A stretch of 64,000 nt of DNA from Collinsella phocaeensis. GTDB taxonomy: Bacteria > Actinomycetota > Coriobacteriia > Coriobacteriales > Coriobacteriaceae. Below the pieces are notes generated by a model. It was not told the origin of the DNA and searched no databases. It saw only the letters and a list, made by a program, of their open reading frames with translations. Below are positions 1,790 to 31,935 of this stretch, piece by piece; the first letter of the stretch is position 1, and each line of letters begins with the position of its first letter. The stretch lies in NCBI RefSeq assembly GCF_900119895.1, contig NZ_FQLR01000004.1:434001-498000 (forward strand), in the 5' to 3' direction. Position numbers and translations under genes: made by a program.

Positions 1790-2620
1790 TTGGAGAACGT
1801 ACTCGAGAACAACGAAATAGGGGATGGTCCGGTGAGCGGGGAGGCCGTTGCGGCCAGTGCCGTCGCTGTGCCTGTCGAGCCCGCCGCGGTGCCCGCGAGC
1901 GACGCGCCGGTCTCCGGCACGCGCGAGAAGGTGGCAGAGGGCGGGGCGCGCCGGGCGCGCCTGGGCTCCATGCGCGAGCTCGCGGAGTGGGACCGCGGCC
2001 GCATAGGCTACCGCTTCGTGAAGAGGGCCTTCGACATAGCGTTCTCCGCGTGCGTGATCGCCGTGGCGATCGTGCCGTCCGCCGTGCTCTGCGCGGCCAT
2101 CGCCATCGAGAGCCCGGGATGCCCGCTGTACCGCCAGAGACGCGTGGGGCGCATCGGCGCGGACGGCAGGCCGCGCGAGTTCACCATGTGGAAGTTCCGC
2201 AGCATGGTGAAGGGCGCCGACAGGATGAAGGACGCCCTGCTGGCCGAGAACGAGGTCGAGGGGCCCATGTTCAAGATGAAAGACGACCCGCGCGTCACGC
2301 GCATCGGCCGCTTCATCCGCAGGCACTCCATCGACGAGTTCCCGCAGTTCCTGAACGTCCTCGTCGGCGACATGTCCGTGGTGGGCCCGCGCCCGCCGCT
2401 GCCGCGCGAGGTCGCGCAGTACGACGAGTGGGCCATGCAGCGCCTGGCCGTGAAGCCGGGCCTCACCGGCCCCTGGCAGGTGGGCGGCCGCTCGGACGTG
2501 GACTTCGACGACATGGTGCGGCTGGACCTGGGCTACATCGCGCGCCGGTCGGTCGCCATGGACCTCAAGATCATCCTCCAGACGATCGCGGTCGTCTTCA
2601 CCGGAAAGGGGGCGGCGTAG
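1790..2620 (+). CDS. Undecaprenyl-phosphate sugar phosphotransferase (bacterial sugar transferase family)
   Basis: This 276-residue monotopic phosphoglycosyl transferase transfers a sugar phosphate from a nucleotide sugar to undecaprenyl phosphate, the first membrane step of polysaccharide synthesis. A 70-residue Ala/Val-rich N-terminal segment precedes KRAFDIAFSACVIAVAIV, the membrane re-entrant helix. Then come YRQRRVGRIG, the FTMWKFRSM motif, and HSIDEFPQFLNVLVGDMSVV, whose Asp-Glu pair is the catalytic dyad of the family. VGPRPPLPREV follows. The start is TTG at 1790, weakly supported by the GGGGGA stretch upstream. It has only the C-terminal WbaP/WcaJ-type catalytic domain, without the four-helix N-terminal domain of large forms. 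The nucleotide sugar used cannot be read from sequence. Confidence 0.93.
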   Translation: MENVLENNEIGDGPVSGEAVAASAVAVPVEPAAVPASDAPVSGTREKVAEGGARRARLGSMRELAEWDRGRIGYRFVKRAFDIAFSACVIAVAIVPSAVLCAAIAIESPGCPLYRQRRVGRIGADGRPREFTMWKFRSMVKGADRMKDALLAENEVEGPMFKMKDDPRVTRIGRFIRRHSIDEFPQFLNVLVGDMSVVGPRPPLPREVAQYDEWAMQRLAVKPGLTGPWQVGGRSDVDFDDMVRLDLGYIARRSVAMDLKIILQTIAVVFTGKGAA

Positions 2621-2621
2621 G

Positions 2622-3737
2622 ATGGCTGAACCTATTCGAGTTGCCCACGTGATGGGAAAGATGGTCGGCGGCGGCGTCGAGCAGGTGGTCATGAACTACT
2701 ATCGCCACATTGACAGGTCGAAGGTACAGTTCGATTTCCTGGTCGATGCCGACTCGACGCTTGTTCCGACGGAAGAGATCGAGTCGTTTGGCGGGCGTGT
2801 TTTCGTTGTGCCGCCGTACCAGAACGTTCTTGAATATCAACAGGCGTTGAAGTTTCTTTTTCGAGTTCAGGGCTGGGAGATTGTTCATAGCCACATTAAT
2901 GCGCTCAGCGTATTTCCCCTTCATGCCGCCAAGAAGGCGGGAGTACCGGTCCGCATCGCCCACAGCCATTCCACGAGTGGTAAGGGCGAGTATGCCAAGA
3001 ACGCGCTGAAGGCGGTGCTGAGGACCCAGTCGAACCGCTATCCCACGCAACGGTTCGCGTGTAGCGAATTAGCGGGTAAGTGGCTTTTCGGCGTGGGAGC
3101 CGACTTCGAGGTTATCCACAATGCGGTTGACCTAAGCCGCTTCATCTTTGACGTGAGCACACGAGCCGAGGCGCGGGCTGAGCTGGGCCTCGTCGGCGAC
3201 CAGTTTGCCATTGGTCATGTTGGCAGATTCACGGCTCAGAAGAACCATCGTTTTCTCATCGAGGTGTTCTCGGAAGTGGTAAAGCGTCGTCCTGACGCTG
3301 TGCTTCTTCTCGTGGGCACCGGCGAAGCCGAGGCTCTCGCGGAGAGCTGGGCTGCCGAACGCATGGTTGCGGACAAGGTGAGGTTCCTCGGTCAGCGGGC
3401 GGATGTCGAGAAGCTATACCAGGCTTTCGATGCGTTCGCGCTGCCCAGCCTCTACGAGGGCCTGGGCCTCGTCGGCGTCGAGGCACAGGTAGCGGGTTTG
3501 CCGTGTTTCCTATCGGACGCCATTACCCGTGAGGTTGATGTCACTGGCACCAGCCGTTTCCTGCCCATAGACGACCCTAGGGTGTGGGCGGATGTCATCT
3601 GCGGAACCGGGCAAAGAACGAACGAAGAGCGTGCATCCTTCCGGGCTTCCGCGTTTGCCGATTATGACATTAAGAGCCAGGGCGAACGACTTACCAAAAG
3701 GTACCTAGAGCTTTCTAAAGGGGTGAAAGGGCAATGA
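2622..3737 (+). CDS. Glycosyltransferase, GT4 type
   Basis: A 371-residue cytoplasmic retaining glycosyltransferase with a GT-B fold. The N-terminal motif MGKMVGGGVEQVVMNYYRHI is typical of EpsF/CapM-like enzymes of capsule loci. The C-terminal donor domain has GHVGRFTAQKNHRFLIEVF and the EGLGLVGVEAQVAGLP segment, with the Glu that contacts the donor nucleotide. It probably adds the second or a later sugar to the lipid-linked repeat unit. It begins one base after the sugar transferase stop and overlaps the next gene by 4 bp, so translation is likely coupled. From about 2680 onwards the DNA is clearly less GC-rich than the two genes before it, marking the start of the exchangeable cassette. 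Confidence 0.9.
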   Translation: MAEPIRVAHVMGKMVGGGVEQVVMNYYRHIDRSKVQFDFLVDADSTLVPTEEIESFGGRVFVVPPYQNVLEYQQALKFLFRVQGWEIVHSHINALSVFPLHAAKKAGVPVRIAHSHSTSGKGEYAKNALKAVLRTQSNRYPTQRFACSELAGKWLFGVGADFEVIHNAVDLSRFIFDVSTRAEARAELGLVGDQFAIGHVGRFTAQKNHRFLIEVFSEVVKRRPDAVLLLVGTGEAEALAESWAAERMVADKVRFLGQRADVEKLYQAFDAFALPSLYEGLGLVGVEAQVAGLPCFLSDAITREVDVTGTSRFLPIDDPRVWADVICGTGQRTNEERASFRASAFADYDIKSQGERLTKRYLELSKGVKGQ

Positions 3738-11139: not shown

Positions 11140-12234
11140 ATGAAGAAAGTCATGCTTGTCTTCGGCACGCGTCCGGAGGCCATCAAGATGTGCCCGCTCG
11201 TCAACGAGATCAAGTCCCGTCCGGGCGAGTTCGAGACGACCGTCTGCGTGACGGGCCAGCACCGCGAGATGCTCGAGCAGGTGCTGCGGGTGTTCGACGT
11301 CGTGCCCGACCACGACCTGGCGATCATGAAGCCGGGCCAGACCCTGTTCGACGTGACCTGCGACGTGCTGCTCAGGCTCAAGGCGGTCCTCGAGGCGGAG
11401 CGCCCCGACGTGGTCCTCGTCCACGGCGACACCACGACGAGCTTCGCCGCCGCGCTGGCGTGCTTCTACCTGCAGATCCCGGTCGGCCACGTCGAGGCGG
11501 GCCTGCGCACGCGCGACATCTACAGCCCCTGGCCGGAGGAGTTCAACCGACAGGCGGTCGACATCGTCTCCGGGTACTACTTCGCGCCCACCGAGGCGAG
11601 CAGGCGGAACCTGCTGGACGAGGGGAAGCCCACCGACCGCATCTGGGTCACCGGCAACACGGGGATCGACGCGCTCGCCACCACGGTGCGCGAGGGCTAC
11701 GCGCACCCGGAGCTGGAGTGGGCCCGCGGCAGCCGCCTCATCCTGGTCACCGCGCATCGCCGCGAGAACCTGGGCGAGCCCATGCACCGCATGTTCCGCG
11801 CCATCCGCCGCGTGATGGAGGAGCACCCCGACACCAAGGCGATCTACCCCATCCACATGAACCCCCTGGTGCGCAAGGCCGCCCACGAGGAGCTCGACGG
11901 CTTCGACCGCCTGCGCATCGTCGAGCCGCTCGAGGTCCTGGACTTCCACAACTTCATGGCTGCCTCGCATCTCATCCTCACCGACTCCGGCGGCATCCAG
12001 GAGGAGGCGCCCGGGCTCGGCAAGCCGGTGCTCGTGATGCGCGACACCACCGAGCGCCCCGAGGGCGTCGAGGCGGGGACCCTCAAGCTCGTGGGCACCG
12101 ACGAGGACGTGATCTGCCGCGAGTTCAGCCGCCTGCTCTCCGATGCGGACGAGTACGCGCGCATGTCCCGCGCATCGAACCCTTACGGCGACGGGCACGC
12201 GAGCGAGCGGATCGCGGACGTACTTGCGGGGTAA
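11140..12234 (+). CDS. wecB: UDP-N-acetylglucosamine 2-epimerase (non-hydrolysing)
   Basis: The 364-residue enzyme interconverts UDP-GlcNAc and UDP-ManNAc in the cytoplasm. It opens with [18 protein letters not shown], then TGQHREML near residue 40. [16 protein letters not shown] and GHVEAGLRT follow, and later [12 protein letters not shown] and [12 protein letters not shown], which hold the conserved His, Arg and Glu residues of the GT-B-like active site. Length fits the family exactly. Its GC content jumps far above that of the preceding genes, so it belongs to the conserved end of the locus. A decayed nucleotide-sugar dehydrogenase gene follows, so UDP-ManNAc may once have been oxidised further here. 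Confidence 0.95.
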
Positions 12235-12271
12235 GCCGGGCAGATCTGCATGGATTCCTAATTGATGTAAT

Positions 12272-12298
12272 GGGGCTGCGACTTGGGATTGCAGCCTC
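12272..12298 (+). terminator. Hairpin after wecB
   Basis: GGGGCTGC (12272-12279) pairs with GCAGCCTC (12291-12298), eight pairs including one G-T, followed by TAATTT. It is a plausible weak terminator of the polysaccharide operon. Confidence 0.45.
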
Positions 12299-12390
12299 TA
12301 ATTTATATCGGGGTGCAGTTCTGCGGCCAATTACTGTTCGGTTGGTGCTGCAGAGGCTTCCGTCAACTTTTGCGGCCGTGTCAATCGACC

Positions 12391-12706
12391 GCGTGATGTC
12401 ATTGGTGTACGCCGGCGAGCCCATGCCGGTGGTCGGCGTCTACCGCCTCACCATGAAGAGCAACTTCGACAACTTCCGCGCGAGCTCCATCCAAGGGATC
12501 ATGAAGCGCGTGAAGGCCAAGAGCATTCCCGTCATGATGCCCCGAGGCCCACACTGGCCGCGTCCGACTTCTTCGGTTCCGAGGTCACGCACGATCTCGA
12601 GGCGCTTAAGGCGCGCTGCGGCGTGATCGTGGTCAACCGCTGGAGCGACGACCTCGTCAACGTCGCAGACAAGGTGTACACGAGGGACCTGTTCAAGCGG
12701 GACTAG
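12391..12706 (+). pseudogene. ugd: Decayed UDP-glucose 6-dehydrogenase gene, C-terminal part, frameshifted
   Basis: Only about the last 105 codons of a UDP-glucose/ManNAc-type dehydrogenase remain. One frame reads [19 protein letters not shown] and [11 protein letters not shown], a highly conserved Ugd block. Near 12545 the match moves to another frame and continues as [19 protein letters not shown], then VVNRWSDDLVNVADKVY and TRDLFKRD before a TAG at 12704. The catalytic Cys region and the N-terminal Rossmann domain are missing. Position after wecB suggests the ancestral locus ended in a complete ugd or wecC gene. A second fragment of the same block lies at 17519. Confidence 0.85.
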
Positions 12707-12937
12707 GTTTTCCCATGTCGCCTGGTTTTCAGCCCTCGACGGCTTCGGCCGCCAGGGGCTCTCTTGATTTAGGGCTTTGGTGAGTAATGCCCCGGTCAGG
12801 TCGCGGTTGGCAAGCAGATCGGGCCCCTCGCTGCCAGAAGGGGCAGCCCTGCTTCACCCTCGCGGGTATCGACGAGCGCGGTCTGCTGAGTCGCGATATC
12901 GAGGCTGTTGGCAAGCGCGGTTGTTGGGTACTGTACA

Positions 12938-20735: not shown

Positions 20736-21036
20736 GCTTGTCGTCTCGAAGGGCGCTGCGATGGAGTTACGCGGCATCGCCCAGTACCTTGAAGACGAGC
20801 CCGCCTCTCCGGGCGCGGCGCGTTCTTTTATCCAGGAATTCAAACATCAGGCCGAGCTCGCTTGCTCGTTTCCTCGCTCGCATCCGCTATGCGTTCATTC
20901 CGAGCTCGCGCAGAGGGGCTACCGTTCGTTTCGGGTGGGCAGGTATGTCGCAATCTATTCCGTCGCAGATGAATTCCTCAAGGTCCTCCATGTATTCCAC
21001 CGGTCGCAGGATTATGTCCGCGATGTTTTGGAGTAA
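20728..21036 (+). CDS. Type II toxin, RelE/ParE family
   Basis: A 102-residue protein starting MLKLVVSKGAAMELRGIAQY. It has the pattern of ParE/RelE toxins: an N-terminal beta strand, two helices (LEDEPASPGAARSFIQEFKH), then PLCVHSELAQRGYRSFRVGR, YVAIYSV and FLKVLHVFHRSQDYVRDVL. The Arg-rich strand and the late HRSQDY segment fit ParE-like members. The ATG at 20728 is preferred over an upstream in-frame ATG at 20677 because the product then has the family length and overlaps the antitoxin as usual. ParE would target gyrase and RelE mRNA; sequence alone does not decide. Confidence 0.82.
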   Translation: MLKLVVSKGAAMELRGIAQYLEDEPASPGAARSFIQEFKHQAELACSFPRSHPLCVHSELAQRGYRSFRVGRYVAIYSVADEFLKVLHVFHRSQDYVRDVLE

Positions 21037-21289: not shown

Positions 21290-21685
21290 TTACAGGATGT
21301 CCGCATAGCGCTCGGCTATGTTGTTGTTCATGCGCTCGAACTCGGGGATGTATTGGTCAATGATGGTTGCGACCAGCCGCTCGGCAAGCTCGGCGTCGTA
21401 GATGTGGGCCGTGTCGTTTCGATCGCGCAGCATGTGCAACCAGATCTCCTCGTCCATCCAATCATAGTAGGCGTATGCTGCCTTGATAATCTCTCGAGGA
21501 GAGCCGGTCGCAGCGACGCGGTCGCCTTCGTATTTCATGAGCTCTTTTAAGAGCTTCCATCCGAGTTCGAATTGCAGGGAAAACTTGGCGATGATGCCTC
21601 CTCGCACGAACTCGTTCTCCAAATCCTGGTCCTTTGATCGTCTGAGGGTCTCGAGTGCGGAGGAGTAGCTATCGAACTTCTTCAT
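21290..21685 (-). CDS. hepT: HepT-like HEPN-domain toxin / nucleotidyltransferase substrate-binding protein
   Basis: The 131-residue helical protein resembles the HI0074/HepT family. It contains LQFELGWKLLKELMKYEG and the HEPN active-site pattern R-x4-H-x-Y in LRDRNDTAHIYD near residue 90. In studied HepT toxins this motif cuts RNA and its Tyr is adenylylated by the partner. It overlaps the upstream nucleotidyltransferase gene by 17 bases, so the two are made together. In HI0074-type members without RNase activity the protein is only a substrate-binding subunit; here the intact motif favours a toxin. Confidence 0.8.
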   Translation of the reverse strand: MKKFDSYSSALETLRRSKDQDLENEFVRGGIIAKFSLQFELGWKLLKELMKYEGDRVAATGSPREIIKAAYAYYDWMDEEIWLHMLRDRNDTAHIYDAELAERLVATIIDQYIPEFERMNNNIAERYADIL

Positions 21686-21959
21686 ACAGCACCTTCCCGT
21701 CCTTCAGCACCTCTTCGAGCAGCTCGTGCGATGAGCTCTCGTCCATGTTGACGACATCTAGCTGGAGCAGTGACCACAATTCGTTGTCGAGGCGATCTTC
21801 GAGGTGCGGAAAGTCCGGACAGCCCCATACGGCAAGGTCGATATCGCTCTTCTCTTCCGCGGTCCCGCGGGCGCGGGAACCGAAGAGCATGACGCGCACT
21901 GCGCGCTCTTCCGCACATATCTCGCGTATCTGATTGTAGACGTGCTCCATGTTTCGCAT
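21669..21959 (-). CDS. mntA: MntA-like minimal nucleotidyltransferase, antitoxin partner
   Basis: The 96-residue protein carries the nucleotidyltransferase motif G-S-x10-D-x-D exactly, as MLFGSRARGTAEEKSDIDLAV at residues 24-44. A third acidic residue appears in LLQLDVVNMDE. MntA proteins adenylylate HepT and so block it. It is the first gene of the minus-strand pair. In the Shewanella pair hepT comes first, so the order is reversed here. The start at 21959 is followed by MRNMEHVYNQ; a start two codons later is also possible. Confidence 0.82.
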   Translation of the reverse strand: MRNMEHVYNQIREICAEERAVRVMLFGSRARGTAEEKSDIDLAVWGCPDFPHLEDRLDNELWSLLQLDVVNMDESSSHELLEEVLKDGKVLYEEVR

Positions 21960-22330: not shown

Positions 22331-23557
22331 ATGGGCGCAGCGAAGAAGCACGGGCCGGCGGCCTACCTGGGGATCGACGTCGGCAAGAGCAGGCACAGCG
22401 CCTGCGCGCTCGACGCCGCCGGCGGGGTCGTCTTCAGGGCCGACCTCGACAACAGGCCGGACGCGATAGACCGGCCGCCGGAGCGCGCCGGGGACGCCGC
22501 GCTGGTCGTCGTCGACCAGAAGCGCAACATCGGCGCGCTCGTCCTGGCCAGGGCGCACGCGCTGGGGCGCAGGTGCGCCTACCTGCCCGGCTACGCCGAG
22601 AAGCGGGCGCGCGACATGATGCCCGGCATCGCCAAGACCGACGCGATCGACGCCGAGGTCATCGCCCGCACCGCCATGGGCATGCCGCAGGCGCTCAGGC
22701 CGATCGCCGCGGAGGACGCCGCCGCCAGGTCGCTGAGGGCGCTGTCGTCGCAGCGCGAGTACGCCGTCGCGTCCAGGACCAGGGCGAAGAACAGGTTCCG
22801 CGCCGTCCTGCTCGAGGCCGGCCCGGAGCTGGAGCGCGCCGTGGACCCGTCGTCGCCGTGGCAGATGGCGGTGCTCTCCGAGCTCGGCGGCGCGCCCGGC
22901 TGCTCGGCCGCCGGATGGGGCGCGTTCGCCGACGCCGCGCGGCGCGCGGGCGCGCCGGCCGCGAGGGCCAGGGAGTTCTGGGAGGCGCTCGACGCGTCGG
23001 CGGGGTCCGGGAGGGGCGCCGGCGCGGGAGAGGACGTCTCGGTGCGCATGCTGGCGCGCGAGATATCCGCGCTGGACTCCGACGTCGCCGAGCTCGACGG
23101 GCTCATAGGAGAGGCGCTGGCCGGCGACGAGGTCTACGAGAGCCTGCTCACGATACCCGGCATAGGGCCGAAGACCGCCGCGGCGCTGGTCACCGCGGTC
23201 GACATCTCGCTGTTCGGGAGCCACCACGAGCTCGCGAGCTACTGCGGGGTGGCGCCCGCCGACAGCAGGTCCGGCACCAGCGTGAGGTCGACCTCCCCGC
23301 AGCGCGGCGGCAACAAGCAGCTCAAGAACCTCCTGATATTCAGCTGCAACTCCCTCGTCGGCACGGACAACAGGTTCGGAAGGTACTACGACGAGTGCAG
23401 GGCGAGGGGGATGAGGCACAACAAGGCGCTGAAGGCCGTCGCGAGGAAGAGGATGAAGGTCGTCTACGCGGTCATGTGGGACGCGGTCCCGTACGAGCCC
23501 CGTCGGTAGCGCTCAGGGACAACCTAGTCGGAGGAGAGGGCGCCTGCGCGCGTCCCG
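22060..23557 (+). mobile_element. IS110-family insertion sequence, ends approximate
   Basis: The transposase gene at 22331 and a structured non-coding region before it mark an IS110-type element. These elements lack terminal inverted repeats, so the ends given are only outer guesses. The left end lies somewhere after the MntA-like gene start. The right end lies in the 48 bases before the DUF2442 gene. Confidence 0.5.
22331..23509 (+). CDS. IS110-family transposase (DEDD recombinase)
   Basis: The 392-residue protein has the RuvC-like N-terminal domain starting AAYLGIDVGKSRHSACALD, with its first catalytic Asp. The KTDAIDAEVIARTAMGMPQA segment near residue 98 supplies later DEDD acids. A helical linker follows. 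The C-terminal Tnp_20 domain includes LTIPGIGPKTAAALVTAVD and the YCGVAPADSRSGTS block, which holds the conserved Ser. It directs bridge-RNA-guided recombination in studied members. The gene is complete and in frame, so the element may be active. GGGAGAGGA lies before the ATG at 22331. Confidence 0.93.
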   Translation: MGAAKKHGPAAYLGIDVGKSRHSACALDAAGGVVFRADLDNRPDAIDRPPERAGDAALVVVDQKRNIGALVLARAHALGRRCAYLPGYAEKRARDMMPGIAKTDAIDAEVIARTAMGMPQALRPIAAEDAAARSLRALSSQREYAVASRTRAKNRFRAVLLEAGPELERAVDPSSPWQMAVLSELGGAPGCSAAGWGAFADAARRAGAPAARAREFWEALDASAGSGRGAGAGEDVSVRMLAREISALDSDVAELDGLIGEALAGDEVYESLLTIPGIGPKTAAALVTAVDISLFGSHHELASYCGVAPADSRSGTSVRSTSPQRGGNKQLKNLLIFSCNSLVGTDNRFGRYYDECRARGMRHNKALKAVARKRMKVVYAVMWDAVPYEPRR

Positions 23558-23839
23558 ATGCGTTATGCTGAAATCGAGCGGTCCCCGCCGCTTGACAAAA
23601 CCATAGAGACACGTTACGTTGGCGATCACATCTTTCTCATTATGTTCTCGACGGGTGAGACCCGTCTGTTCGATGCGTCCTGCCTTCCGTCCCTTCCGGC
23701 GTTCAAACCGCTAGCAGACGAAGCCGTGCTTCGTGAATTCGGGATCGACCATGGCGTCTTGACGTGGTGTGACGGGGAAATCGATATCGCGCCGGAAGCG
23801 TTATACGAACGAAGCTTCGAATGCCAGCGTATTGCATAG
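23558..23839 (+). CDS. DUF2442 domain protein
   Basis: A 93-residue protein with LFDASCLPSLPAFKPLADEA and GVLTWCDGEIDIAPEALYE, the pattern of DUF2442. The family often sits beside a DUF4160 protein in pairs suspected to be toxin-antitoxin modules; no DUF4160 gene is present here, and the IS110 element lies directly upstream. The original partner or promoter may have been displaced by that insertion. The start at ATG 23558 lacks a strong ribosome site, so an upstream part of the gene could be lost. Confidence 0.7.
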   Translation: MRYAEIERSPPLDKTIETRYVGDHIFLIMFSTGETRLFDASCLPSLPAFKPLADEAVLREFGIDHGVLTWCDGEIDIAPEALYERSFECQRIA

Positions 23840-24087: not shown

Positions 24088-24480
24088 CTACATCTCGAAG
24101 CTCGTAAGCGCCCCGCGCGCTGCGGCGACGGCACCCGCCACGAGCGCGTCTACGTTTTCCGACTCCTTGGCCGGGAACATGAGCTCCATGAGCACGGGGA
24201 AGTTCGTGCCCGTCACGAGGCGCACCTCGGGATGCTTCATTCGCGTGAGCACCGATGCCTTGAACGGTGACCCGCCCTGCACATCCGTGCAGATGACGGT
24301 GGGGGCGCCTGCGTTTTCCGCCACGAGTCCCTCCATGCGTTCGCACAGCTCGTCGAAGCTGTCCCCCTCGCGGAAGTCCAGGGAGCGCACGCGGCTGTCG
24401 TCGCCGCATAACAGGGTCAGTGCTCCGTGGAACCCTGTGCCGAAGCCTCCGTGCCCGCACAGCACGAGTCTAGCGTCCAT
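24088..24480 (-). CDS. PTS mannose-family EIIA component
   Basis: The 130-residue cytoplasmic protein accepts phosphate from HPr and passes it to EIIB. The early segment LVLCGHGGFGTGFHGAL has the His of the mannose-type IIA active site at residue 10. CTDVQGGSPFKASVLTRM near 80 and LVTGTNFPVLMELMF complete the family pattern. It overlaps the BtpA-family gene by 11 bases and is the last gene of the minus-strand operon, well separated from IIB, IIC and IID, which lie upstream. Confidence 0.93.
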   Translation of the reverse strand: MDARLVLCGHGGFGTGFHGALTLLCGDDSRVRSLDFREGDSFDELCERMEGLVAENAGAPTVICTDVQGGSPFKASVLTRMKHPEVRLVTGTNFPVLMELMFPAKESENVDALVAGAVAAARGALTSFEM

Positions 24481-25282
24481 CCTTCCTCCTTTCGGTGCGC
24501 AGCTCGCGCACCTGGTCCATGAAGATCCGCGCGCGTTCCGGGTTGATGGGGTTTCTCATGTTGCCGTCCTTCACCCAGGTGCCTACGGAGACCCCGTCGT
24601 ATTCGGAGAGTATTTCCTTGATGTTCTCGCCGGTTGAGCCGCTACTCAAGAAGATGGGGATTTCCGATCCCAGCCGTGCGCGCACGGCGCGCACGAGCTC
24701 CATGCTCTCAGTGAGTGAGCGTCCTCCTACGAAAAGGCCGTCGGCGAACGCGTTCATCACGGTGTCCCAGGCGTTATCCACCACGGATTTGCCGCACAGC
24801 TGTTCGTAGTGCACCTCCTGCACATCGGCGAAGACGGGCATGCGCGAGCCCAGGCGCTTTTTGAGCGCGAGCACGTCGATGCATTGCGCTTGCAGAAGAC
24901 CGGCGTAGCCCACTTCCACGGAGGTGTAGGTGTGCTCGACGCGTATGAAATCGCTTTCCGCCGCCTCGGCCACGGCCAGCGATGACTCGCCGTCCCAGTT
25001 GACGAGGATGCCCTGTATCAGATCGGGGCACGCCCTGCGCAGCTCGAGGGCGATGCGCGTCATGAAGGCGGTCGTCTCGACGTTGGCGTGCTGGCGCACG
25101 GGCGCGTCGTTGCGGTTCTGGATGATGTAGCCGTCGAAGCCGTTCTCGGCGAGCATCTTGGCCTCGGCGACCGCGCGCTCCACGATCTCGTCGAGCCCCA
25201 TGCCGTCGTTCAGGTAGGTTCCGGGCAGCGGCTCGGGCTGGATCATGGCGAGCGCGACCGGGTATCGATCTCTGCTCAGCAT
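24470..25282 (-). CDS. BtpA/SgcQ-family TIM-barrel protein
   Basis: A 270-residue protein with YPVALAMIQPEPLPGTYLND at its start, AKMLAENGFDGYIIQNRNDA near residue 50, and repeated strand motifs such as IQGILVNWDGESSLAVAEA and FLSSGSTGENIKEILSEYDG. These match the BtpA family, which includes SgcQ of an E. coli PTS cluster and cyanobacterial BtpA. The reaction of the family is unsettled. The start at 25282 overlaps the preceding stop as TGATG, and GGAGAGGAG lies just upstream. An upstream extension of the frame to 25498 only overlays the previous gene. Its place between IIA and an isomerase-like gene suggests action on the phosphorylated sugar. Confidence 0.88.
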   Translation of the reverse strand: MLSRDRYPVALAMIQPEPLPGTYLNDGMGLDEIVERAVAEAKMLAENGFDGYIIQNRNDAPVRQHANVETTAFMTRIALELRRACPDLIQGILVNWDGESSLAVAEAAESDFIRVEHTYTSVEVGYAGLLQAQCIDVLALKKRLGSRMPVFADVQEVHYEQLCGKSVVDNAWDTVMNAFADGLFVGGRSLTESMELVRAVRARLGSEIPIFLSSGSTGENIKEILSEYDGVSVGTWVKDGNMRNPINPERARIFMDQVRELRTERRKDGR

Positions 25283-26250
25283 CAGATCTCCTCTCCAAGC
25301 GCGCGCCCGTACTCGAGCGCGAGGGGGAACAGCCCTGCGGGCGGGATGACGCCCCGCTCGCAGATCACGGCTTCGATCAGGTTCCCCGGGATGGACACGA
25401 GCTTGATTCCCTTGCAGTCCACGAGCTCGGCGAGCTCCGGCGCGATGGCGTCGCCCAGGCGCCGGCGGTAGTCGAACTCCATGGGACGCAGCCGACACGT
25501 GCCGCGAACGGCGCGCAAGTCGAGTTTAAGCAGCGGCGTCAGCACGTAGAGCGGCTTGTTCAGATGGCGGCAGAGCACCGCGAGGATGTCTGAGCCGATG
25601 GTGTTGAACGTGGTCCCGTCCGCATAGACCGTCTCGGCGCCGATGAACGCGGCGTCGCAGGTCCTCAGTTCGTCGAGCATGCAGGTATCGGGGATGAAGC
25701 GGACGTGCCTGCCTTGGGCGGTTGCGCCCTTCAGGAACGGCACCCCGCCGTTGAGGGCGCGGCTCTCGGGGATGCTCACTTCCACTTCGGGCGGCAGCGC
25801 CCGTATGAATGCGTCCACGGTCGACGAGTAGTCGAAGCACATGACGCGGGAGAACGTCGCACATGTATTCACGGCGAATCCTACGAGCCGGCGTACCGCC
25901 GCGGCGTTGCTTCCCTGGAAGGCGTCGATGTCTTCCAGCAGGATGCGCTCGAATTCTCCGGCGTCGGTCACGTCGTCGGTAAACGCCCGAACCGTCATGA
26001 GGCCAAGGGCGTTGTAGATGGCGCGCGAATTCTGCCCGCGCGTTCCTCTGTAGTACTCAACGAGCGCGCCCACGCGTTCACGGAGGACTTCCAGGTCCTC
26101 CCGCCCGTCGTGCTCGACGAGGCTCTTCATCATGCGCTGCATGAGGCCGATCTGGGCGTTGGCGCCCAGCACGCGGCTTTGGTCGATATCGTCGAAGAGC
26201 TCCGCGGCGTCCTCTGCGAGCAGCGCGCGGATCTCGGTCTTGTCTCTCAT
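25282..26250 (-). CDS. eIF2B/MtnA-like sugar-phosphate isomerase family protein
   Basis: The 322-residue product belongs to the IF-2B alpha/beta/delta-related family. A helical N-terminal half holds RGTRGQNSRAIYNALGLMTV. The Rossmann-like C-terminal half has SRVMCFDYSSTVDAFIRALP and VSIPESRALNGGVPFLKG. Then come LRTCDAAFIGAETVYADGTT and NTIGSDILAVLCRHLNKPL, the typical GADxxxxDG..NKxGT region in altered form. Bacterial members isomerise methylthioribose-1-phosphate or ribose-1,5-bisphosphate. Here Ala-Glu replaces the usual Ala-Asp of that motif, so specificity may differ. The gene overlaps the upstream amidohydrolase by 4 bp and is part of the PTS operon. Confidence 0.85.
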   Translation of the reverse strand: MRDKTEIRALLAEDAAELFDDIDQSRVLGANAQIGLMQRMMKSLVEHDGREDLEVLRERVGALVEYYRGTRGQNSRAIYNALGLMTVRAFTDDVTDAGEFERILLEDIDAFQGSNAAAVRRLVGFAVNTCATFSRVMCFDYSSTVDAFIRALPPEVEVSIPESRALNGGVPFLKGATAQGRHVRFIPDTCMLDELRTCDAAFIGAETVYADGTTFNTIGSDILAVLCRHLNKPLYVLTPLLKLDLRAVRGTCRLRPMEFDYRRRLGDAIAPELAELVDCKGIKLVSIPGNLIEAVICERGVIPPAGLFPLALEYGRALGEEI

Positions 26251-26975
26251 AGTCCCAACAGCTCCTTCGCGTTGAGGTGGCGATGGCGCTCCACGAACCC
26301 CTCGTCAAGGTCCAGCAGGTCGAATGCGTGCAGCGAGCAGTGCGTGGACTTGTGGGGGTAGTGCGTGCCAAAGAGGATTTTGCGGTGGTCGATGGCCGCG
26401 AGCGCGCGCCGGATGATCGGGAACTCGTAGAGGCAGCTCGTCTCCACGTAGATGTTGTCGTGCTCCGGAACCATCTTGATGCAGCCGTACCCGAAGTCCG
26501 TGGTGCCCATGTGCAGCATCACGAAAGGCAGTCGCGGGAAGCGCTGCGCGAAGAGGGCCCATTGGGCGGGCATGGAGCGCGGGCCCCAGCCGGTGAAGCA
26601 GTTGACGACGAGGCCGTGCTCCTGCGCGAGCTCGAGGATGGGGTCGAGCCAGGGGCGCTGCGTTTCCGGGTAGTAGCTATGCTCCGCGCCGTCGAGTTCG
26701 ATGGCGCGGAATGCCCCCGAGGCGACGACGCGCTCCATCTCCTCATAGCAGTCTCGCGCACGGGGGTTGATGACCGCCGCGCCGATCAGGCGGTCCGGAT
26801 GCGCTTCGACCGCGCGCTGGACGGCTTCGTTTTGCTCGCGGATCGAGTAGCCGTCCAGCGCGGAGATCATGCGCACGTCGATGCCGTTGGCGTCCATGTC
26901 CTCCAGGCAGTCCCCAACCAGATAGCGGTCCTTCCCCCGGTCCCAGGGGAGGTGCGCATGATAGTCGATGACCAT
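26247..26975 (-). CDS. Amidohydrolase family 2 (metal-dependent TIM barrel)
   Basis: The 242-residue enzyme starts with VIDYHAHLPWDRGKDRYLVG, where H-x-H is the first metal site. VNCFTGWGPRSMPAQWALFA and FVMLHMGTTDFGYGCIKMVP supply later ligands. The motif IDHRKILFGTHYPHKSTHCS near residue 215 has His where related proteins have Asp (FGTDYP), an unusual change at a metal or catalytic position. Members are hydrolases, lactonases or decarboxylases. In this operon a lactonase or deacetylase step in sugar breakdown is an inference. It overlaps the isomerase-like gene by ATGA. It is distantly related to the other amidohydrolase of the operon. Confidence 0.85.
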   Translation of the reverse strand: MVIDYHAHLPWDRGKDRYLVGDCLEDMDANGIDVRMISALDGYSIREQNEAVQRAVEAHPDRLIGAAVINPRARDCYEEMERVVASGAFRAIELDGAEHSYYPETQRPWLDPILELAQEHGLVVNCFTGWGPRSMPAQWALFAQRFPRLPFVMLHMGTTDFGYGCIKMVPEHDNIYVETSCLYEFPIIRRALAAIDHRKILFGTHYPHKSTHCSLHAFDLLDLDEGFVERHRHLNAKELLGL

Positions 26976-26991
26976 GTTCGCTCCTTATGCG

Positions 26992-27846
26992 TTAAGCCAG
27001 GATACCGGCCATGCTGCCCAGCACGCCCACGATCATGACGGCGAACATGAGTGGCACGGGGTTGACCTTCTTCTTGTCGATGAGCCAGAAGCACAGCAGC
27101 GTGAGCGCGAGCGGAAGCATGCTCGGCATCATGCCGTCGAGCGTCTCCTGCAGCGAGACCACGGTCTCGCCGGCGGAGTAGGACAGGGCGAGGTTCATGG
27201 CCACGAGGTTGGAGACGAAGCCGCCGATGACCACGCACGCCGCGATGGAAGCGTACTTGGTGAGCTTTTGGAGTAGTCCGCTGCTCTGGATCTTGGCCAC
27301 GAGACTCACGCCCTGCTTGTAGCCGTACATGATGCCCAGGTAGCGCAGCGCCTGGCCCACGCCGGCCATGACGAGTACGAAGAGGATGGCGCCCATCGGG
27401 CTCGTGTAGCCGCTCGCCGTGATGAGCGAGACGGCGAGGCCCGCCATGATCGGGCGAAGGGTGCCGTGGTAGAGCGAGTCGCCGATGCCCGCGAAGGGTC
27501 CCATGAGCGCCGACTTGATGGCGCCGATGGAGGCAGGGTCGATGTCGTGCTTCAGGGCGTGCTCCTCTTCCATGGCGGCAGTGATACCGAGGATGAGGTG
27601 CGAGAGGCGCGCCTCGGTGAGGAAGAGCTCGGTGTGGCGGCGGTAGGCCTCGACCTTCTCCTCCTCGTTGTCGTAGACCTTCTCGATGACGGGGATCAGG
27701 GAGAAGACGGTGCCCGGGGCCTCCTGTTTCTCGTAGTTGAAGCCGGAGACGAAGGCCTGCGAGTAAATGTAGAGCTTCAAAAGGTCGCGCTTGCTCAGCC
27801 GATGCAGGGTGTCGGGGGATTGAGCGGCGTTAGCGGTCTCAGACAT
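26992..27846 (-). CDS. PTS mannose-family EIID component
   Basis: The 284-residue membrane component begins with a hydrophilic segment, then LSKRDLLKLYIYSQAFVSGF. It has the family block LILGITAAMEEEHALKHDID followed by SALMGPFAGIGDSLYHGTLR, and several helices near the C terminus (SMLPLALTLLCFWLIDKKK). With IIC it forms the translocation channel for the sugar. It lies between IIC and the second amidohydrolase gene and reads in the same direction. Confidence 0.94.
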   Translation of the reverse strand: MSETANAAQSPDTLHRLSKRDLLKLYIYSQAFVSGFNYEKQEAPGTVFSLIPVIEKVYDNEEEKVEAYRRHTELFLTEARLSHLILGITAAMEEEHALKHDIDPASIGAIKSALMGPFAGIGDSLYHGTLRPIMAGLAVSLITASGYTSPMGAILFVLVMAGVGQALRYLGIMYGYKQGVSLVAKIQSSGLLQKLTKYASIAACVVIGGFVSNLVAMNLALSYSAGETVVSLQETLDGMMPSMLPLALTLLCFWLIDKKKVNPVPLMFAVMIVGVLGSMAGILA

Positions 27847-27892
27847 GGGTATGCCCTTCTTTCGGAGATTCCTTTGGAGTGCGTGCTATGGG

Positions 27893-28654
27893 TCAGCTCA
27901 GGGCCGCCTGCTCCTCGCGATCACGGTCGGCGTAGAAGGCGGCGGCAACGCAGATGACGGCGAGCATGGTGATGCCGATGTTGCCGATACCCAGGTAGCT
28001 GGCGAAGAAGAAGCCGATCAGGAAGAAGTACCACATCTTGGAGAAGTTGATCGATTTCATCAGCAAGGAAAGACCCACGGCGCCAATCATGTTACCGCCG
28101 ACGGCGAGGCCCGTTATAATCGATTGGGGGATCGCGTTGATAATGCCCTGCACCAGATCCGCTCCGAAGTAGACTGCCAAGAACACCGGGAGAGCGAAGA
28201 GGACAAGGTTGAACACGTTCGGGAGCACGAGGCAGTTCATCGTGATCCCCTTGAGGTCATGACGTTCGACGGCGGCTTCGAGGCGGTGCCCCGTCCAGAC
28301 GCATAAAACCATATTGCGGAAGTACATGCCCATCTGGGCGATGACGGCGAGCGGGAGCGCCGTGGCGAGTGCGACCTCGGTGGAGTTCGCGATGCAGGCG
28401 AAGGCCGTCGCGATGATGGTGGAGAAGGTCTCCTCGGGAGGCAGCGCGGTGCCCACGAAGACCTGTCCCAGGAACATGAGCTCGACGATGCAGCCCACCT
28501 GCAGGCCGATTTCAAAGTTGCCCATGATGAGGCCCACGATCGGGCCGATCACCACGGGGCGGTAGGTGAAGAGCTGGGTGCAGTACTTGTCGAAGAACAT
28601 AAGCCAGGTGACGAGTGTCAGCACCAGCGACTGAACGAGCAGTCCGGAATCCAT
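27893..28654 (-). CDS. PTS mannose-family EIIC component
   Basis: A 253-residue integral membrane protein with about seven or eight helices. Characteristic segments are FTYRPVVIGPIVGLIMGNF and CIVELMFLGQVFVGTALPPE near the N terminus, and GLAVGGNMIGAVGLSLLMKS further on. It recognises and carries the sugar together with IID. The gene is 12 bases after the IIB stop and 46 bases ahead of IID. Confidence 0.93.
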   Translation of the reverse strand: MDSGLLVQSLVLTLVTWLMFFDKYCTQLFTYRPVVIGPIVGLIMGNFEIGLQVGCIVELMFLGQVFVGTALPPEETFSTIIATAFACIANSTEVALATALPLAVIAQMGMYFRNMVLCVWTGHRLEAAVERHDLKGITMNCLVLPNVFNLVLFALPVFLAVYFGADLVQGIINAIPQSIITGLAVGGNMIGAVGLSLLMKSINFSKMWYFFLIGFFFASYLGIGNIGITMLAVICVAAAFYADRDREEQAALS

Positions 28655-28666
28655 GATTTCCCCTTC

Positions 28667-29161
28667 CTAGAGCGAGTTTTTCTTCAGCAACTCATCGACG
28701 TCGATGGGCTTGTCTGCCGGAACGGCGCGGATCTCGAGTTCGATTCCCCCTTCCATCAGCTTTCGCAGATACGACACGTCGTCCGGTTCCACGTAGACGA
28801 AGGCCAGCAGGCGCTTGCGTCCTACTTCGGAACGAGAGTTGGAGATGTTGCCCACGTTGATGCTCTTCGGGCAGAAGCCGTGCTGGACGAGCTCGTAGGC
28901 TGATTTGGGATTGCGAACGATGAGCAGCGCGTTTTGGTCGCTTTCGTCCGTGGAGAGCAGCTTGGCGGCGTCTGCAATCGTGAGGATATCGAGGGTGATG
29001 CCGCCCGGAACGGTGAGCTTGAGCAGCATCTGCTGCGTGGGATCGGCGGCCGCGCGGTCGTCGGCGACGATGATCTTCTTGGCCGCGGAGTCCGCGATCC
29101 ACTGAGTGACGATCTGGCCGTGAATGAGGCGGTCATCGATGCGGAAGTTGGTGACGTTCAT
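28667..29161 (-). CDS. PTS mannose-family EIIB component
   Basis: The 164-residue cytoplasmic protein starts MNVTNFRIDDRLIHGQIVTQ, where His14 is the phosphorylated residue of the family. KIIVADDRAAADPTQQMLLK and ILTIADAAKLLSTDESDQNA follow, with the LMEGGIELEIRAVPADKPI tail. It takes phosphate from IIA and gives it to the incoming sugar. The start at 29161 is fixed by GGAAAGGAG just upstream; a longer frame reaching 29446 overlaps the preceding gene without family support. Confidence 0.94.
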   Translation of the reverse strand: MNVTNFRIDDRLIHGQIVTQWIADSAAKKIIVADDRAAADPTQQMLLKLTVPGGITLDILTIADAAKLLSTDESDQNALLIVRNPKSAYELVQHGFCPKSINVGNISNSRSEVGRKRLLAFVYVEPDDVSYLRKLMEGGIELEIRAVPADKPIDVDELLKKNSL

Positions 29162-29175
29162 GGGTTTCTCCTTTC

Positions 29176-29913
29176 CTATGCGGCGGCGCCGTTCCAGATG
29201 CGCTCCGCGTTGCTGTGCAGGACATCTTCGAGCTGCCGGTCGGATAGGCCCAGCTCGAAGATCTTGTCCACCTCGATATTGGTGGGCTTGTAGGGCCAGT
29301 CGGTGCCGAAGAGCACGCGTTCGCTGCCGAGGGTTCGGACCGCCTCGCGCAGGATGTCCATCTCCTCGTTGGCGCTCGTCTCGACTGAGAAATTGGGGAT
29401 GTCGCGAATGAGCTCGATGCAGGTGGTGCCGAACTCGCGTCCGCATGCGTGCGTGAATACGAAGTCGGTTTCGGGGTGCTTTCGGGCGAAGCGGGTCCAG
29501 ATATACGGGGTGCAGAGCGGTGACGCGCCGCCGTGTATCTGTATGTGGACGCCGTAGTGCGCAATCGCGTCGACGACGCTTTCGAGCTGCGGGCAGTTCT
29601 CGACGCTGTAGCCGTGCTTCCAGCTCATGAACTTGACGCCCCGCATGCCCAGGTCGCCGAGCGTGCGGTCGATCTCGTCGAATGCGCCGGGGTCTTTGGG
29701 GTCGATGTCGGCGTAGCCCACGACGAAATCGGGGAATTCGCGCATGGCCGCTGCGACGACGTCGTTGTTCTCGCGCATGCTGTTCTGCGAGAGCGAAACG
29801 ATGCCCACGCGTTCGATGCCGTAGGCACCGAGTTGCTCGACCATCTGCGCGGCGCTGTTGTCGTCACCGCTGCGCGTCTTGCCGAGGTGGGAATGGAAGT
29901 CGTATTTCTTCAC
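29176..29913 (-). CDS. Amidohydrolase family 2 (metal-dependent TIM barrel)
   Basis: The 245-residue protein begins MKKYDFHSHLGKTRSGDD, with the metal-binding H-x-H. It continues with GVKFMSWKHGYSVENCPQLE, holding a probable Lys ligand, and GVHIQIHGGASPLCTPYIW. DFVFTHACGREFGTTCIELI follows, and then RVLFGTDWPYKPTNIEVDK with the canonical Asp. All expected ligands of the superfamily are present, unlike the paralog at 26247. It directly follows the regulator gene (adjacent stop and start) and precedes IIB. Substrate unknown; a phosphorylated lactone or N-acyl sugar would fit the operon. Confidence 0.88.
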   Translation of the reverse strand: MKKYDFHSHLGKTRSGDDNSAAQMVEQLGAYGIERVGIVSLSQNSMRENNDVVAAAMREFPDFVVGYADIDPKDPGAFDEIDRTLGDLGMRGVKFMSWKHGYSVENCPQLESVVDAIAHYGVHIQIHGGASPLCTPYIWTRFARKHPETDFVFTHACGREFGTTCIELIRDIPNFSVETSANEEMDILREAVRTLGSERVLFGTDWPYKPTNIEVDKIFELGLSDRQLEDVLHSNAERIWNGAAA

Positions 29914-30668
29914 CTATTTACCTCCCGTTACGTTCACGATGTGGACGGAGTACTTGTACTGGTCGCCGCGGTAGGAGTTCTCGGAGAACTCTACGGGCCT
30001 CATGCGCGCATCGTAGGTGACGCGCTCTTTGTAGACCACGGCGCACGACTGCTCGTCGATGAAGAGGTAGCGACGCAGCTCGCTTGACGCCAGGCGTGCC
30101 TCCACGGTCTCGTCGGCGCTGCCGAGCACGATCCCCTTTTCTTCGAGGAAGGAATAGAGGCTCGTGTCCTCTCCGAAATCTTCCTGCGTCACTTCAAAGC
30201 CCAGGTCGGCACGGATATATGATTTGTGCAGGGCAACGATGCGGCCGTTGAGGAGGCGCAAGCGAATGAGGGCGAAGACCTCGTCGCTCGCGAGGATGTC
30301 GAGCTTCTCGGCGACGTGCACGCCGGCGAGGACGCGCTCAAGGCCAGGATGATGGAACTCGGGCGGTCGCCGCGCGACAGGGTGTCACCCGAGAAGGAGT
30401 TGAATACCGTGAGCGGACGCTCGAGCCGCATGCGGAGCACGAGGCTGCCCTTACCCTTGCGCTTCTCGATATAGCCGTCGTTCTCCAGATCCGCCAGGGC
30501 GCGGCGGATGGTGATGCGGGAGACGCCGAACTCCTGGATCATGTCGCTCTCGCTAGGCAGAATGCTGCCCACTGCATAGACGCCATCTATGATGCGCTCC
30601 TTGAGGACGCTGTAGAGCTGGTAGTAAAGCGGTGCTTCGGATGCCTTGGTGATGGGGCTGCCCTCCAT
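29914..30668 (-). pseudogene. GntR/UTRA-family regulator of the PTS operon, frameshifted
   Basis: The N-terminal 110 or so residues form a GntR winged helix: PLYYQLYSVLKERIIDGVYA, ILPSESDMIQEFGVSRITIR and RALADLENDGYIEKRKGKGS. The C-terminal UTRA ligand domain (AEKLDILASDEVFALIRLRL to EFSENSYRGDQYKYSVHIV) continues in a different frame. The switch lies near 30340, where RPSSIIL should lead into ERVLAGVHVAEKL; one missing base would restore the join. Either the regulator is inactive or a sequencing error is present. As first gene of the operon it would be a sugar-phosphate-responsive repressor of the operon and perhaps of the divergent transporter. Confidence 0.85.
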
Positions 30669-30765
30669 GCCTGTCCTCCTTGTTCTTCTCGTCTCAGCTT
30701 GTTATGACATATTTATAAATCTTACTCCACCTATTATAATATCATTCAGTCGGCGAAAGGATGAT
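30669..30765. promoter_or_regulatory. Divergent promoter region of the PTS operon and the MFS gene
   Basis: The 97 bases between divergent genes are AT-rich. A perfect TATAAT lies at 30735-30740 for the plus strand, without a good -35. The AT-rich segment GTTATGACATATTTATAAAT at 30701-30720 is a candidate GntR/UTRA operator. Confidence 0.5.
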
Positions 30766-31935
30766 ATGAGCCAGTCAGCGTTTCTTGTGGCGGTCGTGAG
30801 CCTTCAGAACCTCGGGTTCAACCTCGTGCATCCCGTCACCCCCGCATTTATCGCCGCGACGGGTATGCAGGATTGGATTTTCGGCGTCTCGTACGCGGCG
30901 ATGGCACTCACGAGCTTCCTCTTCTCGAAGGGGGCGGGGGAGCTCTGCATGCGCTTCGAGAGCCGCTACGTCTTTGCCGTGGGGTGTATGGGCTATGCCG
31001 CCGCGCAGCTCATGTTCCTTGCTTCCACGAGCGAGGTCCAGGTTATTGCCTGGAGGCTGTTCAGCGGGTTTTTCGTTGCCATGATCAACGTATCTTCGCT
31101 GGTTTATCTTGTACGCATGTCTGCCGGCGACAAGCGGGCGCGTAGCCTGATTCATCTTGCGACCGCCACGGCGGTGACCACGGCCCTCGGTTATACGGTT
31201 GGCGGCATCGTCGGCAACGAGAGCTATGCGCGCGCGTTTCTCGCTCAGTTCGCAGCGCTCGCCGTGGCGGGCCTGTTGTTGGCTCTGTTGGGGGGAGACT
31301 GCGGGACGGAGCGCGTGGGTATACGGAGACTTTTGCGCGACGGCAATCCGCTGCGCTTGGGTTCGGCGGATTTCCGGGTGCGGCGGCGCATTGTCGCGTA
31401 TCTCGCCGTGGTGCTGATTTCCATGAGCGCGCTGACTGTCTACGAGCAATCGCTTAACTACTACCTCAAGGACATCCTTGATTTCTCGCCGGCGGATATC
31501 GGTTGCCTTAAAGGCGCGATCGGCGCGGTGACGCTCGTCTCCAACCAGGTGTTCGCGCTTCGGCTCATGCGCCGAGCTCGGTTGCTTCGCCACATCGGCG
31601 TGGTGTTCGCCCTGGCTTCCTTCGTGAACCTGCTGTTCGCGGCAGTCGGGGGCGGCCCTGCGTTCACGGCGCTCAATCTTGTGTTCACCGTGTTCAACGC
31701 TATGCATCTGCCCATGGTCCAAGAGCTCGTGACGTCTGCCGATGAGGCTCATCAGGATGAGCTGGTTAGTCTTTATAACGAGATGCGCTCGGTGGGTTGG
31801 GTCGTGGGCGGCCTCGTCGCAGGCCTTGCGTACGCAGTGTGGCCGCCGTTGCCCTTTGCGATTACGGTCGTGCTGTTCGCAGGCCTTGCGGGGCTTTGCC
31901 TCTATGGGGACCGGCTACAGCGAGTGTACCAATAG
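30766..31935 (+). CDS. Major facilitator superfamily transporter
   Basis: A 389-residue protein with about twelve predicted membrane helices. Typical features are the N-terminal helix MSQSAFLVAVVSLQNLGFN, the segment FLFSKGAGELCMRFESRYV in the position of the MFS loop 2-3, and the central basic loop around residues 180-210 (RRLLRDGNPLRLG). The start at 30766 is chosen because GGCGAAAGGA precedes it and the longer frame reaches into the promoter region. Divergent transcription from the PTS operon suggests it exports or imports a related compound, such as a non-phosphorylated product. The substrate is unknown. Confidence 0.85.
   Translation: MSQSAFLVAVVSLQNLGFNLVHPVTPAFIAATGMQDWIFGVSYAAMALTSFLFSKGAGELCMRFESRYVFAVGCMGYAAAQLMFLASTSEVQVIAWRLFSGFFVAMINVSSLVYLVRMSAGDKRARSLIHLATATAVTTALGYTVGGIVGNESYARAFLAQFAALAVAGLLLALLGGDCGTERVGIRRLLRDGNPLRLGSADFRVRRRIVAYLAVVLISMSALTVYEQSLNYYLKDILDFSPADIGCLKGAIGAVTLVSNQVFALRLMRRARLLRHIGVVFALASFVNLLFAAVGGGPAFTALNLVFTVFNAMHLPMVQELVTSADEAHQDELVSLYNEMRSVGWVVGGLVAGLAYAVWPPLPFAITVVLFAGLAGLCLYGDRLQRVYQ

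Follow-up and report, generated by a model that had tools for sequence, protein, structure and literature searches.

Organization of the operon

The 64,000-nucleotide stretch of Collinsella phocaeensis DNA analysed here, referred to as the window, carries a nine-gene operon that joins a mannose-family phosphotransferase system (PTS) to an eIF2B-like protein, a BtpA/SgcQ protein and two amidohydrolase-type proteins, AH1 and AH2. Comparison of the sequences confirms that the set is a conserved, putatively catabolic module without an assigned pathway, and a nitrogen-bearing sugar is its tentative substrate.

The operon occupies the minus strand from position 30668 down to 24088, and all nine genes are read in one direction. 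A GntR-family regulator (29914..30668) is followed by AH1 (29176..29913, PF04909), the mannose/sorbose-family PTS components EIIB (28667..29161, PF03830), EIIC (27893..28654, PF03609) and EIID (26992..27846, PF03613), the AH1 paralogue AH2 (26247..26975, PF04909), the eIF2B-like protein of the IF-2B family (25282..26250, PF01008), BtpA (24470..25282) and finally the mannose-family EIIA (24088..24480, PF03610, supported also by its spacing). These Pfam assignments were made on the window proteins and confirm, at the stated positions, the genes from AH1 to EIIA that the original prediction named. For the regulator, the GntR and UTRA domains were instead recognized on the intact copy in Olsenella sp. 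An188 (locus L032).

The intergenic spacing ranges from -11 to 46 bases. The start of the BtpA gene overlaps the stop of the eIF2B-like gene, and the EIIA gene overlaps that of BtpA by 11 bases. When the window is compared with L032, the ratio of nonsynonymous to synonymous substitution rates (dN/dS) lies between 0.06 and 0.20 for the eight genes other than GntR. The tight spacing and the low ratios argue that the operon is a real, selected unit and not a random row of open reading frames. A scan of the operon for promoters and terminators gave nothing above chance. The host genome contains PTS enzyme I, and its single IF-2B family gene is that of the operon.

Both the regulator and a major facilitator superfamily (MFS) transporter had been described as divergent. 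This holds for the transporter (30766..31935, plus strand, PF07690), but the GntR gene opens the operon, running in the direction of the other genes and directly abutting AH1. The GntR sequence is split into two open reading frames in different frames, and DNA alignment with the intact L032 gene places a one-base deletion near 30345, possibly a genuine decay or an assembly error. A 33% relative of the MFS gene lies at the same divergent spot in locus L091 and none was found at the other loci examined; on this comparison the transporter is loosely linked to the operon.

The phosphotransferase system

The PTS is complete, as had been claimed: the IIA, IIB, IIC and IID domains are all present, and the translations contain the LIHGQ motif of EIIB (within RIDDRLIHGQ, the phosphorylation site) and the active-site His of EIIA. 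All components score below the curated NCBIfam cut-offs for mannose, sorbose, galactosamine (GalN) and N-acetylgalactosamine (GalNAc) systems. Where relatives of the operon lack the PTS (L036, L041, L043 and L073), it is replaced by genes for a PfkB kinase and an ATP-binding cassette (ABC) or energy-coupling factor (ECF) importer, so that phosphorylation at or after import is the constant feature. Two other operon copies encode proteins of 529-531 amino acids with an EIIC-like start and a match to EIID (L092 11491-13086 and L093 11527-13116), apparently EIIC-EIID fusions.

The eIF2B-like protein

The predicted model of the eIF2B-like protein has a predicted local distance difference test (pLDDT) score of 88. 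Its best fold match is ribose-1,5-bisphosphate (R15P) isomerase (Z 31.8, root-mean-square deviation 2.4, 309 residues), and its sequence scores 45 against the R15P isomerase profile, for which the cut-off is 314. The protein was aligned with the isomerase PH0208 and with human eIF2B-alpha, the human fragment being identical to PDB 6caj_H; the roles of the ligand residues are those reported for the isomerase (PMC5789824) and for eIF2B-alpha (PMC8187479). The states of the ligand residues given below are invariant in 26 aligned members and in six more.

Cys135 of the isomerase is replaced by Asp140, and none of the 26 members has a Cys at this position. HMMER and MAFFT alignments are one residue apart at this point (Tyr141 versus D140), without a Cys in either register. 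The model, which has a strand at residues 135-139 and a helix from 143, favours D140 as the counterpart of the lost Cys. Asp204 of the isomerase is Glu206 in 26 of 26 members, as part of a GAE motif (residues 204-206). The reported change from Ala-Asp to Ala-Glu is therefore present, and human eIF2B-alpha likewise has Ala-Glu at this site (E198).

The phosphate-binding residues are retained selectively. Arg22, Gln166 and Lys215, which bind the 1-phosphate in the isomerase, are Leu28, Gly168 and Thr217, leaving solely Arg65 (R71). Ser137 and Lys240, which bind the 5-phosphate, persist as S142 and K242, and the sugar ligand Asn214 persists as N216. Residues Y130, E198, N208 and K234 of the fructose-6-phosphate pocket of human eIF2B-alpha are kept as Y141, E206, N216 and K242; these four residues and D140 are invariant in the eIF2B-like proteins. 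The isomerase family had been taken to suggest a sugar 1-phosphate, but three of the four side-chain ligands of that phosphate are replaced in every member. Because those contacts are lost while the 5-phosphate ligands and four fructose-6-phosphate contacts are kept, and because a PTS or PfkB delivers such a product, a sugar 5- or 6-phosphate is the likelier ligand, judging from the aligned residues.

BtpA and the amidohydrolases

The assignment to the BtpA/SgcQ family is upheld by scores of 157.4 bits against TIGR00259 (cut-off 153.4) and 157 against PF03437 (cut-off 30). Modelling (pLDDT 86) gives a TIM barrel, and its nearest solved folds are near-tied phosphate-binding barrels with Z between 17.8 and 19.6: 3-hexulose-6-phosphate synthase (the best, 19.6), 2-keto-3-deoxy-6-phosphogalactonate (KDPGal) aldolase, thiamine phosphate synthase and HisF. 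BtpA is thus predicted to be a phosphate-binding TIM barrel. With so many near-tied barrels, the choice of a specific reaction by fold comparison was ruled out. R116, D183, G217 and K240 are among the residues invariant across distant BtpA proteins. In L091, a second mannose-PTS cluster (843-2328 and 2558-3538) has an AH1-like gene, with all metal residues kept, adjoining a BtpA gene and a gene for a URO-D-family protein, without an eIF2B-like gene.

AH1 has a complete metal and catalytic set (D5, H7, H9, H127, H155 and D205, comprising the HxH motif, the beta-5 and beta-6 His and the late Asp) together with an invariant K94. The set is invariant in 21 aligned copies and five more. In 22 aligned copies AH2 keeps the HxH motif and the beta-6 His, except that L056 has Tyr for the second His of HxH. 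The beta-5 His is Phe127 in every copy, and position 205 is never Asp, being His, Met, Asn, Ser, Lys or Thr. The His described at the late motif of the window protein is there (His205, in FGTHYP), but it is no special substitution, since the position is non-Asp throughout the clade and the beta-5 His is lost as well. The free variation at position 205 suggests that no catalytic role is left there. As both residues are missing clade-wide, AH2 is probably not a hydrolase. It is still under purifying selection (dN/dS 0.14, window versus L032) and so retains some function. A lactone or N-acyl step, formerly proposed for both amidohydrolases, fits the residues of AH1 but not those of AH2.

Distribution and acquisition

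Scanning of 84,980 species genomes yielded 27 loci, spread over Lachnospiraceae, Clostridium, Erysipelotrichia, Carnobacteriaceae and Coriobacteriia, and over Bacillaceae with the eIF2B-BtpA pair. The genes for the eIF2B-like protein and BtpA are adjacent and on the same strand in all 27. All nine families occur together at 19 loci, and also at L057 if an EIIA assigned by clustering alone is counted. At L033, L037 and L054 the operon is cut by contig ends, and the Bacillaceae loci (L036, L041, L043 and L058) have, of the nine families, the pair alone or the pair with GntR. In L058, from Peribacillus loiseleuriae, a second, broken eIF2B-BtpA pair (11291-12847) lies beside the intact one.

Whole-genome sampling added L072, L092 and L093, each with the full set, as well as L091 and L094, where no EIIA was found next to the other genes. 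Counting in each set the genome on which it was centred, the operon is present in 5 of 246 genomes of its own class (its own genome included). The Lachnospiraceae set has it in 3 of 299 genomes, among them L073, which carries just the pair. The other sets gave 1/249, 1/246, 2/391 and 5/296; a sixth candidate in the last, L095, belongs to a different subfamily. The operon is rare, with a broad but sparse distribution in gut and environmental Firmicutes and Actinobacteria.

Across the nine genes, pairwise distances show correlations of 0.81-0.97, in keeping with travel as one unit. By BtpA, the window operon is closer to that of L072, from the Lachnospiraceae family set (66%), than to the operons of Collinsella in its own class (52%). 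It forms a group with Olsenella and L072, and the Collinsella/Enorma copies group with Firmicutes, so that this class acquired the operon at least twice. No relative was found among the viral contigs searched, and no eIF2B-like protein on the plasmids searched.

Conservation of the set across genomes, which the original prediction regarded as support for a pathway, is thus seen at 19 of 27 loci. Homologs in unrelated contexts had been regarded as evidence against one. A second context does exist, an ABC or ECF transporter with PfkB in Bacillaceae and L073, but import and phosphorylation form a coherent arrangement, so that the pathway is not refuted by it. Searches of the literature covering BtpA in combination with PTS, amidohydrolase or eIF2B, the sgc genes, sugar ureides, dihydrouridine catabolism and pseudouridine with PTS turned up no account of the gene set, in line with the earlier statement that no known catabolic pathway has this exact composition. 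What is new here is the enzymes rather than the PTS-operon architecture.

Beyond the EIIA end of the operon, an IS110-family transposase gene (22331-23509) lies about 0.6 kb from the operon, with a DUF2442 protein gene (23558-23839) in between. Farther out are a nucleotidyltransferase/substrate-binding (HEPN/MNT-like) pair and a ParE-type toxin gene (21290-21959 and 20758-21036), which suggest a variable region.

Proposed pathway and alternatives

Neighbours of related loci provide leads to the substrate. In L072, which has an operon of the window type, the last gene is overlapped by one for a dihydropyrimidinase (TIGR02033, 466.6 bits against a cut-off of 393). In L073 two uridine phosphorylase genes and deoC flank the eIF2B-BtpA pair, accompanied by ECF transporter genes, PfkB and a SIS protein. 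L036 combines a sugar ABC importer with a ribokinase-like PfkB (310.7 bits, where the cut-off is 299.65) and with a gene resembling ureidoglycolate lyase. In L041 and L043, ECF transporter genes occur along with the kinase cluster and, by clustering, a homologue of the same lyase-like gene. At L095 (6604-11283), a beta-glucoside-type PTS and an antiterminator form a row with an R15P-isomerase-like protein (Ser-Tyr-Ser-Ser, GAD) and one of PsuG type, perhaps for PTS uptake of a C-nucleoside. Breakdown of glucose ureide by Clostridium innocuum (PMC9942572) indicates a further possible substrate, with nothing that ties this species to the operon. Other dihydropyrimidinase- or dihydroorotase-like genes of the window genome (32% and 28% identity) are unlinked to the operon. 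Taken together, the neighbours and the induction of the E. coli sgc operon on nitrogen-containing substrates (PMC13343008) hint at a nitrogen-bearing, nucleoside- or ureide-like sugar, somewhat ahead of a plain pentose.

From the gene content and its conservation, the eIF2B-BtpA linkage, the residues lost and retained and the separate acquisitions, we infer the following substrate class, order of steps and chemistry. The operon would be a mobile, conserved catabolic unit for a nitrogen-bearing sugar of the amide, ureide or nucleoside type. The PTS would import the compound and phosphorylate a terminal hydroxyl, giving a 5- or 6-phosphate. AH1, a metal-dependent protein of the amidohydrolase fold, would hydrolyse or decarboxylate the non-sugar part, with AH2 acting as a partner or binding subunit or carrying out metal-light chemistry. 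The eIF2B-like protein would bind the resulting sugar 5/6-phosphate in its eIF2B-alpha-type pocket and isomerise it by means of an Asp/Glu pair (D140 and E206) in place of Cys/Asp. BtpA would then perform a final isomerase- or aldolase-type step leading to pentose-phosphate or glycolytic intermediates. The GntR-UTRA regulator, frameshifted in this genome, may sense a phosphorylated intermediate. We give this full scheme a probability of roughly 0.4. Several observations weigh against it. Each link to nitrogen compounds or nucleosides is confined to one locus or to a small number of Bacillaceae; no such neighbour accompanies most operon copies, and the window operon has no nucleoside phosphorylase, PsuG/PsuK or other neighbour of this kind. 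The IF-2B protein of L095 falls into another subfamily (TIGR00511, 217 bits). The remaining phosphate ligand of eIF2B-alpha, R132, is S143 here, so that four of the five pocket side chains are matched. No growth phenotype was seen, with 190 carbon sources, after deletion of the E. coli sgc operon, which contains the BtpA homologue SgcQ (PMC13343008). L035 and L053 have split transketolase genes next to the operon and L094 has RpiB nearby, as would fit a plain pentose.

These pentose-type neighbours, with RbsD/FucU and an iron alcohol dehydrogenase in L053, belong to a quite possible, though not probable, alternative in which the substrate is a plain sugar, sugar lactone or pentose without nitrogen. 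In that case the PTS would yield a 6- or 5-phosphate and AH1 would serve as lactonase or decarboxylase; aldose-ketose isomerisation would fall to the eIF2B-like protein and an aldolase or epimerase step to BtpA. The best solved relatives of AH1 are gamma-resorcylate and 5-carboxyvanillate decarboxylases, and BtpA elsewhere accompanies FGGY kinase, short-chain dehydrogenase/reductase (SDR) and sugar ABC genes and, in sgc, an RPE-like epimerase, in support of such a pathway. The dihydropyrimidinase, uridine phosphorylase, ureidoglycolate-lyase-like and PsuG-type neighbours, however, would be unexpected. Within the nitrogen-sugar scheme, a more specific version, a new bacterial route for nucleoside or ureide N-sugars in which an eIF2B-alpha-like Asp/Glu enzyme acts on sugar 5/6-phosphates and feeds BtpA, aided by AH1 and the pseudo-hydrolase AH2, must be regarded as doubtful. 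If true, it would give the BtpA/SgcQ family, for which no assigned reaction was found in the literature searched, its first one, and would reveal what chemistry the sugar-phosphate pocket of eIF2B-alpha permits in an enzyme. To our knowledge, no reaction has been assigned to the eIF2B-like proteins of bacteria other than those of the methionine-salvage and R15P groups. As the operon is compact, its PTS intact and the active-site residues clear, the functions of BtpA and of the eIF2B-like protein are testable in one pathway.

The eIF2B-like protein might instead be no enzyme but a sugar-phosphate sensor or scaffold, controlling BtpA or AH1. The missing canonical Cys, the resemblance of the pocket to the one in eIF2B-alpha, which as a regulatory subunit binds sugar phosphates, and the invariant pairing with BtpA would all suit this role, but D140 and E206 are invariant at the site of the isomerase catalytic pair and the 5-phosphate and sugar ligands are retained, making a pure sensor rather improbable. 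The chemistry first suggested, in which the isomerase would act on a sugar 1-phosphate and a lactone or N-acyl group would be the target of both amidohydrolases, draws on a family that includes methylthioribose-1-phosphate and R15P isomerases. It is very improbable in view of the replaced Cys135, the exchange of three 1-phosphate ligands (PMC5789824) for Leu, Gly and Thr in all members and the lack of two metal or catalytic residues in all 22 AH2 copies. Decay of the operon in this genome, with loss of its regulation or use, would be compatible with the nitrogen-sugar pathway in relatives. The GntR deletion, the IS110 element and the toxin-antitoxin genes nearby point in this direction, but the frame break is possibly an assembly error, and the other eight genes are intact and have low dN/dS. 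If GntR is a repressor, moreover, its loss would raise expression rather than end it. Decay is accordingly judged unlikely.

Comparison with known systems

The E. coli sgc operon (sgcXBCQAER, KpLE2) resembles the window operon in combining a PTS, a BtpA/SgcQ protein and a metal-dependent hydrolase-type protein. It differs in having SgcA/B/C and the RPE-like SgcE, whereas the window has a mannose-family PTS, an eIF2B-like protein and amidohydrolases. BtpA, at 25% identity to SgcQ, is the sole gene common to both. The sgc operon is induced on nitrogen-containing substrates, and a 2026 survey (PMC13343008) still left its function unassigned. Among mannose/sorbose/GalNAc-family systems, the window PTS has the full IIA, IIB, IIC and IID set but stays below every curated cut-off.

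AH1 shares its full residue set with Amidohydro_2 proteins such as 3cjp and gamma-resorcylate decarboxylase, whereas AH2 departs from them across its clade in the beta-5 His and the late Asp. The eIF2B-like protein is similar to R15P isomerase (PH0208, Thermococcus R15Pi) in its fold and in its 5-phosphate and sugar ligands, but differs from this enzyme and from MtnA in lacking the catalytic Cys, in having Glu for Asp204 and in the loss of the 1-phosphate ligands. With human eIF2B-alpha it has in common the Y130, E198, N208 and K234 positions of the fructose-6-phosphate pocket. However, R132 is Ser and Ala129 is Asp here, and the protein is encoded in a metabolic operon rather than being part of a translation factor complex.

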